Source of the DNA: Sabulicella rubraurantiaca
GTDB lineage: Bacteria > Pseudomonadota > Alphaproteobacteria > Acetobacterales > Acetobacteraceae
Assembly: GCF_017355885.1 (NCBI RefSeq)
Contig: NZ_JAFEUU010000001.1
Coordinates: 558,001 to 622,000, forward strand
DNA length: 64,000 bases
Direction of reading: 5' to 3'
In this document: piece after piece, positions 6,710-10,313 of the stretch
Position numbering within the stretch: position 1 is the stretch's first letter
Layout: each line of letters starts with the position of its first letter
Translations under genes and position numbers: made by a program
The notes under the pieces: model-generated
Told to the model about the DNA's origin: nothing
The model's database searches: none
Seen by the model: the letters and a program-made list of their open reading frames with translations, nothing else

Positions 6710-8017
6710 CTAGCCCCGGATCCGTGCGAGCGCGTCGTCCAGTGAAACCTCCTCGCGCTCGCCAGTCGCGCGGCGCTTCAGCTCCACCTTGCCTGCGGCG
6801 GCGCCGCGTGGGCCGATGATGGCCTGCCAGGGGCAGCCCAACAGATCCGCATCGGCGAACTTCACCCCGGCGCGTTCCGGGCGGTCATCCAGCAGCGCCT
6901 GGTCGGGCATCGCCGCATGGAGCTTGCCACACAGCGCGTCCGTCGCGGCATCGCCGGGCTTGAGGTTCAGGATGGAAACGCGCCAGGGCGCCACCGCATC
7001 CGGCCACTTGATGCCGGCCTCGTCGTGATTCGCCTCGATCAGCGCGGCGACAAGGCGCGACACACCGATGCCGTAGGAGCCCATCTCGGGCACCACCTCG
7101 GACCCGTCCGGCCCGGCGACGCGCAGCCCCATCGGCTCGGAATACTTGGTGCCAAAATAGAAGATGTGGCCGACCTCGATGCCGCGGGCGCTCACCTGCC
7201 GCTCGGCCGGGACACGCCCCCAGGCGGCCTCGTCGTGCTTCTCGTCAGTCGCGGCGTAGCGGCTGGTCCAGAAATCGACGGTGGGGGACAGGTCGCCCTC
7301 GTAGTCCGGTTCCTGTGCCAGCGGGTCGAAGTCGAGCAGCTCGCGGTCCAGGAAGACCTGGCTTTCGCCCGTCTCGGCGAGGATGATGAATTCGTGGCTG
7401 AGGTTGCCGCCGATCGGACCGGTATCCGCCTGCATGGGGATGGCCTTCAGGCCCATGCGCGCGAAGGTCCGCAGATAGGCGACGAACATCTGTCGGTAGG
7501 AGTGCTGCGCGCCTTCCTTCGTGAGGTCGAAGGAATAGGCGTCCTTCATCAGGAACTCGCGCCCGCGCATCACTCCAAAGCGAGGCCGCACCTCGTCCCG
7601 GAACTTCCACTGGATGTGGTAGAGATTCCGCGGCAACTCGCGATAGCTCGTGACGTAGCCCCGGAAGATGTCGGTCACCATCTCCTCGTTGGTCGGACCG
7701 AACAGCATCGGGCGGCCATGCCGATCCTCAATGCGCAGCATCTCCTTGCCGTAATCCTCGTAGCGGCCGGAGCGCTGCCAAAGCTCGGCCGACTGGATGG
7801 TTGGCATCAGGATTTCCTGCGCGCCCGCGCGGTCCTGCTCCTCCCGCACGATGCGGGCCACGTTGTTCAACACACGCAGCCCGGCCGGCAGCCAGGCATA
7901 GATGCCGGCGCTGGTCTGGCGGATCAGCCCCGCGCGCAACATGAGGCGATGAGAGACGATCTGCGCCTCGGCAGGGGTTTCCTTGAGCGTGGGCAGGAAG
8001 GCTTTGGTCAGACGCAA
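6710..8017 (-). CDS. proS: prolyl-tRNA synthetase
   Basis: This class II synthetase charges tRNA-Pro. Starting at the TTG at 8017 gives 435 residues beginning [19 protein letters not shown], the expected N-terminus for the short alphaproteobacterial ProS type without the long editing insertion. A GAGGAA ribosome-binding site sits 9 bases upstream of this TTG. The longer open frame to 8176 adds non-homologous residues and is rejected. Class II motif 1 lies around [20 protein letters not shown], motif 2 around [21 protein letters not shown] (split here only for length), and motif 3 in [18 protein letters not shown]. An anticodon-binding domain closes the protein. The gene follows a strong minus-strand terminator, so it probably has its own promoter in 8018-8180. 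Confidence 0.95.
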
Positions 8018-8174
8018 GGGAGCGGATTCCTCGGAGGCAAAGGCGGCGCACCCTACAGCGGAATCCGTTGATCCCGAAACCGACCCCTGCAACAGCCGGA
8101 ATGAAATTTTGCTGCGCCGCACAACGGATTTGGTGAAGAAAGTGACTTGAATGGCCGGTTTCCAACCGCTAAAC

Positions 8175-8263
8175 AAAAAGAAGGGCTGGCCCCTTGCGGG
8201 GACAGCCCAAGTTTAGGGAGGAAACGCCAGTCACACGGCAGAGAGAGGAACATCCTCTCTCTG
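8175..8263 (-). ncRNA. candidate trans-acting small RNA with CCUCCC loop
   Basis: Read on the minus strand, a transcript starting near 8263 would begin with a perfect stem (8263-8253 pairing 8249-8239, loop 8252-8250). A mostly unpaired linker follows. A four-base stem GTTT/AAAC (8225-8222 and 8214-8211) then displays the loop CCTCCCT, complementary to ribosome-binding sites. The RNA ends in a GC-rich hairpin (8208-8183) and a T-rich tract (TTCTTTTTG). A promoter-like TTGGAC, 17 bases, CATTAT lies immediately upstream. Predicted length is about 89 nt. The layout (5' hairpin, anti-Shine-Dalgarno loop, terminator) is typical of Hfq-type small RNAs known in alphaproteobacteria with C-rich UCCUCCC loops. 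Identity with any named family is not claimed. Confidence 0.6.
8183..8208 (-). terminator. Rho-independent terminator of the small RNA and DUF1467 transcript
   Basis: On the minus strand GGGCTG and CAGCCC form the outer stem, with CCC/GGG inside and loop GCAA. It is followed directly by TTCTTTTTGTTT (8182-8171). It would end transcription coming from the nuo-to-DUF1467 side and insulate proS. Confidence 0.8.
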
Positions 8264-8269
8264 ACGACG

Positions 8270-8298
8270 ATAATGGCGGAATGACCCTTCGAGTCCAA
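8270..8298 (-). promoter_or_regulatory. candidate promoter of the small RNA
   Basis: On the minus strand TTGGAC (8298-8293) and CATTAT (8275-8270) are separated by 17 bases. The predicted start, about 7 bases downstream, falls at the first base of the 5' hairpin (near 8263). The -35 is weak, so support comes mainly from this coincidence with the hairpin edge. Confidence 0.45.
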
Positions 8299-8412
8299 TG
8301 CGAAAGCCGGGAAAAATCGGCTGAAAATCAGGCATCCATTAAGGATATGCCTATTCGAGGGGCGACCGCCGGGCGAAATCCAGGCAGTCGCCTTTTCCTT
8401 GTGCAGGTCGCC

Positions 8413-8670
8413 TCAGTCGGGGATGGCCAGCCAGCCGCGGCGGAACGAGATCAGGTCGCTTTCGATCAGCGTATAGATCGCCAGCCAGATCACCGCGGAG
8501 AGAATTGTGGTCCAGATGATCTTGCGACCGAGCTGCGGCGCGGCAGGCGCGCCTCGCCAACCGCCTTCCTCCAGGCTGCCTTCCTCCGGATTCACGCCAA
8601 TCGGCAGGATGCAGAAGAGCAGCGTCCACCAGATCAGCGAATAGACTACAAAACCGATAAACCAGCCCAT
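8413..8670 (-). CDS. DUF1467 family small membrane protein
   Basis: This 85-residue protein has two membrane segments: WFIGFVVYSLIWWTLLFCIL (residues 3-22) and a second around IIWTTILSAVIWLAIYTLIE. Between them is a short polar loop containing NPEEG. Length, two-helix plan and the position directly after rnj match the DUF1467 family of alphaproteobacteria, whose function is not established. Its ATG overlaps the rnj stop (TGATG), so it is translationally coupled. Expression with complex I and RNase J suggests a housekeeping envelope role, but that is only an inference. Confidence 0.85.
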   Translation of the reverse strand: MGWFIGFVVYSLIWWTLLFCILPIGVNPEEGSLEEGGWRGAPAAPQLGRKIIWTTILSAVIWLAIYTLIESDLISFRRGWLAIPD

Positions 8671-10313
8671 CAGACCCTCAGCAGGTGAACCTCGACATTG
8701 GGGCGCTTGCGAAGCTGCCGCCCCACCGCCTTGCGCAACATGGCACGCGCCGCCTCGGTCACGGCATCGTCCTCACGGCGCAGCCCCTTCGGCAGCTCGC
8801 CGAGGCCCCGGGCCAGCTCCTCGGCCAGATCCTCGGATTCGGGGCCATCGGGATCGAAGAGGCCGGGCGCCGAGATGCGTGGCTTGCCGACGAGCCGCCC
8901 CTGTCCGTCCACGGCGAGGCTCGCGACCAGCACGCCGTTCATGAGCATGCGCTTGCGCGCACCCAGCACCCCTCCCGCCACGGGTAGGAGGCGGCTGCCA
9001 TCCACGGCCAGGCGACCGACCGGCACGCTTTCCGCAATCTCGGCCCCACCGGGGGCAAGGCGCACCACGTCGCCATCCTCGATGACCAGCGCCTCTGCCC
9101 CGAGGCCGCGCGCGAGAGAGGCGTGCTCGGACAGGTGGCGCCACTCGCCGTGCACGGGGATGGCGTAGCGCGGACGCACGAGCTCGTAGAGGCGCCTGAG
9201 TTCATCGCGGGCCGGATGGCCGCTGACATGGACGAAATGGTCGTCGGCGGTGATGACCTTGCAGCCGCGCCGCGCAAGATCGTCCTGCACGCGCAGGATC
9301 GCGCGCTCATTCCCCGGGATCTGCCGCGAGGAGAAGATGACCGTGTCCCCCTCGCCCAGCGCCATGTGGGGGTGGGTGTCGGCTGCGATCTTCGCGAGAG
9401 CCGAGCGCTCCTCGCCCTGCGACCCCGTGCAGATGATCAGGAGGTTGTCGTCGGGAATGTATCCCGCCTCATCCTCCGAAACGAAGTCGGGCACGCGGGA
9501 GAGGTATCCGCACTCACGCGCCGCGGCGACGGCGTTGCGGAGCGACCGGCCGAACAGCGCCACGTCGCGCCCCGCCGCCTGGGCCGCGAGCGCGACCGTC
9601 TCGACGCGGGCCAGGTTGGTCGCAAAGCAGGTCACCGCGATGCGGCCCCGCATGGGGCGGATCAGCTCCTGCAGGCTGCGCCGCACTTCCGACTCGCTGC
9701 CCGAATGCCCCTCGACCAGCGCGTTGGTGCTGTCGCACACCATGGCGAGCACACCCTCCTCGCCCAGCCGAGCGAAACCGGCCTCGTCCGTGGGCGGGCC
9801 GATCAGCGGCTCCGGGTCCAGCTTCCAGTCACCCGTGTGCACGACCAGACCGTGGCGCGTCCTGATCGCCATGGCCAGCGCCTCGGGGATGGAGTGGGCG
9901 ACGCGCAGGAACTCGATGTCGAAGGGGCCGAGCTTCAGTCGACCCGGCAGGTCGAAGGGGCGAAGCTCCGCCTCCTGCGACAGCCCGGCCTCGGCCAGCT
10001 TCCGCCGCAGCACGGCCGAGACGAAGGGGCCGGCATGGATCGGGCATTGCAGCGAGCGCCAGAGATGCGCCACGCCCCCCACATGGTCCTCGTGCGCGTG
10101 GGTGATGACGAGGCCCAGCAAATCCCCCCGCCGCTCCGCCAGCCAAGCCGGATCGGGGACCATGATCTCGACGGAAGGATTGTCCGGACCGCCGAACCCG
10201 ATGCCGCAATCCACGGCGAGAAGCTTGCCGTCACAACGATACACGTTGAGGTTCATGCCGATCTCCCCCGTTCCGCCGAGGGGGATGAAGGCGAGGTCGT
10301 CCTTGGGTGTCAT
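8670..10313 (-). CDS. rnj: ribonuclease J
   Basis: This metallo-beta-lactamase/beta-CASP nuclease has 5'-3' exo- and endonuclease activity in mRNA decay and rRNA maturation. It has 547 residues, typical for the family. The N-terminal core [15 protein letters not shown] is followed by the zinc motif [10 protein letters not shown] (H72, H74, D76, H77). The beta-CASP region follows, then [18 protein letters not shown] and the late histidine strand [12 protein letters not shown]. The ATG overlaps the coaX stop (ATGA). The order birA-coaX-rnj-DUF1467-proS is common in alphaproteobacteria. Confidence 0.95.

Follow-up and report, generated by a model that had tools for sequence, protein, structure and literature searches.

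An alpha-r8 (suhB/MmgR-type) small RNA gene in the DUF1467–proS gap of Sabulicella rubraurantiaca, with orthologues across Acetobacteraceae

The minus strand of the gap between a DUF1467 gene and proS in Sabulicella rubraurantiaca very probably carries an independent gene encoding an alpha-r8 (suhB/MmgR/SisA-type) small RNA (sRNA) of about 89 nt, the Acetobacteraceae orthologue in the DUF1467 (or RNase J)/proS gap. A first-pass annotation of the window (the whole 64,000-nt stretch of DNA analysed) had listed this element as an unclassified candidate and suggested a covariance-model search. That search classified it: RF00519 (suhB, 'Makes More Granules Regulator RNA') matched 8168-8246 (minus strand) over its full length (model positions 1-77 of 77) with 47.3 bits, above the Rfam gathering cut-off of 41 (E = 1.3e-6 over the whole window). 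RF00519 was the sole Rfam match at E up to 1 within 8100-8420; alpha-r15/AbcR, whose model is present in the Rfam library, gave none in that interval at the same threshold. A model built from orthologues (R1), with the element's own locus included in the training set, scored 101.4 bits at 8164-8270. The element thus belongs to an already known family, RF00519/alpha-r8, whose members block ribosome-binding sites, and an unannotated gene is placed in a family whose action was only recently worked out in Caulobacter. The features are as follows.

8175..8263, minus strand: alpha-r8 (suhB/MmgR-type) sRNA gene, about 89 nt (RF00519, fold z, orthologue model R1)
8298-8293, minus strand: -35-like hexamer TTGGAC, seen in the sequence, position kept in relatives
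8275-8270, minus strand: -10-like hexamer CATTAT, seen in the sequence, 17-nt spacer from TTGGAC
about 8263, minus strand: predicted transcription start
8263-8239, minus strand: perfect 5' hairpin of 11 bp, seen in the sequence, with covariation
8239-8226, minus strand: weak hairpin GCCG-UGUGAC-UGGC with subtype-specific loop (minimum-energy fold)
8216..8236, minus strand: nearly invariant 21-nt core GTGTGACTGGCGTTTCCTCCC (pattern search of genomes)
8224-8215, minus strand: 10-mer UUUCCUCCCU, anti-Shine-Dalgarno seed, identical to the published alpha-R8 core (PMC12559287, partial text)
8225-8222, 8221-8215 and 8214-8211, minus strand: GTTT, CCTCCCT and AAAC, seen in the sequence
between 5' hairpin and terminator, minus strand: linker containing GUUUCCUCCCUAAAC, seen in the sequence
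8208-8183, minus strand: terminator stem-loop, from sequence and two-sided changes
8175..8182, minus strand: T-rich tract after the terminator stem (TTCTTTTT), presumed Hfq handle
8670-8413, minus strand: upstream neighbour, DUF1467 gene (PF07330, 84.2 bits)
6710..8017, minus strand: downstream neighbour proS, prolyl-tRNA synthetase (PF00587 and PF03129)

The proS start near 8017 was judged from homologues (tblastn homology starts near 8015); the listed open reading frame (ORF) reaches 8176. An earlier description of the gap as ORF-free is loosely right: four of six reading frames are open over the 89 nt and two mechanical ORFs, 8053-8298 (minus) and 8194-8688 (plus), run across the element, but neither shows any sign of being a gene. 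Directly after DUF1467, a GC-rich inverted repeat is visible by eye (GGCGACTGCC...GGCGGTCGCC, 8395-8360, minus strand), and the upstream transcript may end there, ahead of the sRNA promoter.

Structure was assessed in the element itself and in its orthologues. The fold has a z of -4.16 (RNAfold), with 0 of 200 shuffles equally stable. Both strong stems described from the letters, the perfect 11-bp hairpin at the predicted start and the terminator with its T tract, are present and covary in relatives. In a plain alignment (A1; 79 orthologues), 17 of 20 pairs of the 5' hairpin and terminator had two-sided changes, compared with 19 of 21 in a structure-fitted alignment; the hairpin alone had 8/10 (plain) and 10/11 (structure-fitted), and the terminator 9/10. 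Values for the whole structure were reached by 0 of 500 shuffles of the plain alignment, and covariation measures collapsed in the structure-fitted alignment once pairing partners were slid. Sequences entered A1 only if they carried the core pattern; there were 103 distinct ones, and 79 once near-duplicates were removed. This selection inflates how conserved the core looks in A1, in the 103-orthologue folds, and in the promoter, core-type and identity comparisons given below. When each of the 103 orthologues was folded alone, the 5' segment had 7 or more pairs in 101 and z < -2 in 86; the full-length z was < -2 in 99/103.

The seed lies between these stems in a largely unpaired stretch. Across the ten positions of UUUCCUCCCU, mean unpaired probability was 0.61-0.92 (103 orthologues), and CCUCCCU stays unpaired, as it does in Caulobacter SisA (PMC12559287, partial text). 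The first-pass annotation had CCTCCCT presented by a GTTT/AAAC mini-stem, a structure that we rejected: alone it has a free energy of +2.0 kcal/mol, its pairing probability is 0.003 here, and among the 103 orthologues the mean is 0.14, exceeding 0.5 in one. The fold places the weak hairpin at 8239-8226 before the seed. Its GCC/GGC helix occurs in both the minimum-energy and consensus folds (98.7% paired, one-sided changes only), and the hairpin has a pairing probability of about 0.09 in longer context. Covariation, anticipated for both proposed stems, was thus seen in the 5' hairpin and in the terminator but not in the mini-stem, which had no two-sided change in its four pairs; because the mini-stem is nearly invariant, covariation cannot test it.

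The promoter-like TTGGAC-17-CATTAT is present as described, and its distance is kept: in 58 of 76 non-redundant loci the best sigma-70-like match had its end 31-36 nt before GTGTGAC, whereas 100 runs of single-base shuffles averaged 8.65 such loci and never exceeded 18/76. It nevertheless failed a strict consensus scan (9 of 12 consensus bases) of 8050-8700, in which no promoter was found, so that the claim of a promoter stands because the hexamer position is kept in relatives. Measured against the characters of alpha-r8, the element has the 10-mer in a single-stranded stretch (8224-8215), an intrinsic terminator at the 3' end and, on the evidence of the positioned hexamers, its own promoter; adjacency to the FGase gene, the position of MmgR and sisA, is lacking, the neighbours being DUF1467 and proS. 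It is scarcely credible that the site is a transcription terminator with chance motifs and no RNA function. A simple terminator scan does find as many sites as shuffles (1 found versus 0.9 expected), but the Rfam match, the covarying 5' hairpin, the conserved unpaired core and the positioned promoter all speak for an RNA gene. Positioned promoter and terminator also argue for separate transcription. For a link with the complex I/RNase J operon, an idea raised from gene order, we found no evidence; constant neighbours do not establish coordination, because vertical inheritance can keep neighbours.

To avoid circularity, we fetched loci through the DUF1467 protein alone (n = 29, nearest Roseococcus sp. 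MDT2-1-1). The core lay downstream of DUF1467 on the same strand in 25 of the 29; among the four without a copy, L057 and L060 stop short of the core, L058 stops inside it and L059 lacks it. DUF1467 was upstream and proS downstream in 44 each of 47 copies of the GTGTGAC-type, with at least one of the two in all; no DUF1467 was found in L067, L068 and L097, the contig ends in L050 and L052, and L087 has no proS within 2 kb. The core pattern yielded 70 further loci, 67 of which were scored for neighbours: 64 keep at least one (30 both, 9 DUF1467 only, 25 proS only), and the remaining three lack both genes (L189, and also L127 and L147, where RNase J is the upstream gene). These collections overlap, in that L033/L082, L034/L078, L035/L062 and L054/L180 each appear to represent one contig. 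Altogether 24 loci are listed without a copy, namely L096, L057-L060 and 19 Rfam matches (L032, L086 and L090 above cut-off); L096 carries the 21-mer though the search pattern missed it.

Allowing up to 2 mismatches, 147 of the 299 genomes searched from the order, spread over 40 of 65 genera, contained the 21-mer GTGTGACTGGCGTTTCCTCCC. At least one of these matches arose by chance (in L122 it falls, as read from the letters, where an RNase J gene ends), and some are second copies; the reversed 21-mer gave zero in the listed genomes of the order. It was absent from all 140 genomes of other families, and only S. rubraurantiaca had a match among 142 genomes of the class. Five genera of Acetobacteraceae (g22, g27, g33, g40 and g54) were without it and a sixth (g32) nearly so, with one chance-like match, which suggests loss or strong divergence. 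In 13 orthologues picked for the core, identity was 1.00 at 8236-8212, 0.86 just upstream and 0.35-0.67 across the remaining gap (8361 to 8012). The hairpins and the C-rich segment are therefore kept in relatives along with the flanking genes, a comparison on which the candidate had been staked. As far as we searched the literature, with limited coverage of subscription journals, an orthologue kept in the DUF1467–proS gap with a nearly invariant 21-nt core is new; no title dealt with an alpha-r8 copy in this gap. A phylogenetic study of the alpha-r8 family reportedly appeared in 2016. For specialists, the interest lies in an orthologue held in this gap and in its extended core.

The steady presence of proS raises the reading that the element is a cis-acting proS leader, in which the terminator would attenuate transcription from the promoter and prolyl-tRNA synthetase would be supplied by read-through. 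We consider this improbable. The element does precede proS closely, and on its strand, in 44/47 copies and 55/67 further loci, but the same family core sits elsewhere in the same genomes, lolC rather than proS comes next in L092/L252, and L087, L127 and L147 share RNase J or DUF1467 as neighbour, not proS. A proS antiterminator was tried and rejected, as there was no conserved pairing of the core with the terminator 5' arm: six or more pairs formed in only 14 of 103 orthologues and not in one place, and with the 3' arm in 68/103, at scattered places.

Sinorhizobium meliloti also has an sRNA beside proS, sra32/smrC9, labelled alpha-r9. It was detected between SMc01933 and proS and differs from the Sabulicella element in length (133-165 nt), end sequences and structure (PMC2245857 and PMC2573895, partial texts); the neighbourhood may therefore host sRNAs repeatedly.

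RF00519 matched at E up to 0.001 in 35 of 41 genomes, with 34 above cut-off. S. rubraurantiaca itself has two further copies of the family, at C11:199348 (51.3 bits) and C58:298923-298997 (minus strand; 33.5 bits, below the Rfam cut-off); the latter, the third copy (locus L003/L121), adjoins TctC-type receptor genes, carries GTGACTGGCATTTCCTCCCTGAAC and has the related GTGACTGGC. Across 25 genomes of the family, the GTGTGAC core type occurred in 23, the CTTGGAC (CUUUCUU-loop) type in 24 and both in 22, with G002, G015 and G017 each lacking one. The CUUUCUU-type copy of S. rubraurantiaca has GST, DsbB and a transglycosylase-like gene (scoring slightly under the Pfam cut-off) nearby, and none of these three scanned neighbours is an FGase gene. 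Siblings in one genome thus share the anti-Shine-Dalgarno seed and differ in the adjoining conserved element, a natural experiment: comparing their targets would tell redundancy from specialisation, which the Caulobacter authors pose as a question (PMC12559287, partial text).

The separate sRNA gene with a C-rich anti-ribosome-binding-site segment, probably acting in trans, that the first-pass annotation proposed is supported. The sRNA most likely works with the help of Hfq, whose gene is present in the genome, by pairing with Shine-Dalgarno regions; transcription, Hfq binding, repression, targets and a role for the extra core are inferred. The alpha-r8 gene would be driven by its own sigma-70-like promoter, and its RNA would end at the intrinsic terminator, the U tail serving as Hfq handle and the strong 5' hairpin guarding the 5' end. 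Single-stranded UUUCCUCCCU would pair with Shine-Dalgarno regions of other mRNAs and block ribosome binding. The adjoining GUGUGACUGGC would most likely extend or specify this pairing, and GTGTGAC and CUUUCUU copies would therefore have overlapping but different targets.

We searched 25 genomes for the reverse complement of the core (18-mer, up to 3 mismatches). S. rubraurantiaca gave 14 sites, two of which are the sRNA gene and its C58 paralogue; the other 12 compare with 7 for the reversed control. Two of six fetched sites in this genome cover a ribosome-binding site (RBS) and ATG. One site (L193 492-520, contig C36) belongs to a metallo-beta-lactamase-fold hydrolase gene whose RBS, AAGGAGGAAACGCCATG, shows 13 nt of complementarity with the sRNA core (read by eye). 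This best RBS site is not kept: the nearest relative lacks a complementary RBS, and the match is absent in 4/4 relatives' loci with the start region visible (5 of 8 loci, including that of S. rubraurantiaca). For hppA, a SisA target, the upstream region was visible in 12 of 18 loci, and none of these 12 had a matching RBS by eye.

A nearly invariant 21-nt core would also suit one fixed partner, as if the RNA were a sponge or decoy that mainly captures a single partner RNA, not many mRNAs. The Caulobacter alpha-R8 core does pair with the sponge CrfA, as confirmed for SisA by compensatory exchange (PMC12559287, partial text). However, SisA represses many mRNAs through its core, and no conserved complementary partner stood out in the 25 genomes in a non-exhaustive search at up to 3 mismatches, which makes this reading highly improbable. 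Repression of mRNAs by the family is documented: SisA lowered 8 of 10 tested reporters, and in E. coli supplied with Caulobacter Hfq it reduced one target roughly six-fold (PMC12559287, partial text).

Given its whole-length Rfam match, the Sabulicella element resembles MmgR of S. meliloti (RF00519, alpha-r8), a 77-nt, Hfq-dependent RNA with three stem-loops and an anti-Shine-Dalgarno motif that limits PHB accumulation (PMC7143759 and PMC8401924, partial texts). MmgR, however, is the sole alpha-r8 copy in S. meliloti, whereas the Sabulicella element is one of three and adjoins proS, and it has the loop GUGUGACU where MmgR has a CUUUCUU-type loop. With SisA-D of Caulobacter crescentus it shares the identical UUUCCUCCCU, here after a possible weak hairpin, an intrinsic terminator and several siblings per genome (PMC12559287, partial text). 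sisA adjoins an FGase gene, in contrast to the DUF1467 and proS neighbours here; the single copy of most species is described as linked in this way, which siblings need not be, and the available part of the same source contains no mention of the extended 21-nt core (PMC12559287). Corbino et al. had earlier made the case for a noncoding RNA, with a putative promoter and a terminator on either side of the conserved domain and with conserved sequence in unstructured regions (PMC1273637, partial text). AbcR1 and AbcR2 (alpha-r15) are likewise Hfq-binding, with unpaired CU-rich anti-Shine-Dalgarno motifs and partial homology to SuhB RNA, but they are 114-120 nt long, lie as tandem copies beside lsrB and have two such motifs (PMC7143759, partial text).

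Outside Acetobacteraceae, we obtained 29 DUF1467 loci from 42 genomes of other families with a DUF1467 match. At E up to 1, R1 matched nine of the 29, all downstream of DUF1467 on its strand. Five had E < 0.01 (L267, 52.6 bits; L252, 49.2; L258, 38.6; L255, 28.8; L259, 20.6) and the remaining four were weak. Because divergent matches lie downstream of DUF1467 in 9/29 loci, the location looks older than Acetobacteraceae; 20 of the 29 had no R1 match at E up to 1, and loss, movement or divergence must therefore be common. The order DUF1467-RNA-proS is kept in L267 and L259, and in L252 (same place as L092) lolC, named from reading, comes next, not proS. Several of the DUF1467-linked RNAs from other families fall short of the Rfam cut-off: only L252 is found at cut-off, L267, L258 and L255 reach 36.6, 34.3 and 32.8 bits, and L259 and L261 had no RF00519 match at E up to 1.

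A second long-standing location for alpha-r8 may thus exist in addition to the FGase-linked one (PMC12559287, partial text). Our fuller proposal combines an ancient site following DUF1467, in most cases ahead of proS and separate from the FGase-linked MmgR/SisA line, with a division of labour in which the second nearly invariant determinant of the Acetobacteraceae orthologue, GUGUGACUGGC, gives it a conserved target set of its own and the CUUUCUU-type sibling keeps the classical set; we put this forward tentatively, at slightly under an even chance.

Three alpha-r8-like RNAs downstream of DUF1467 in other families, L267 2026-2131 (plus), L258 2586-2689 (plus) and L255 1184-1072 (minus), share GGCGATTCCTCCCTAAACT.
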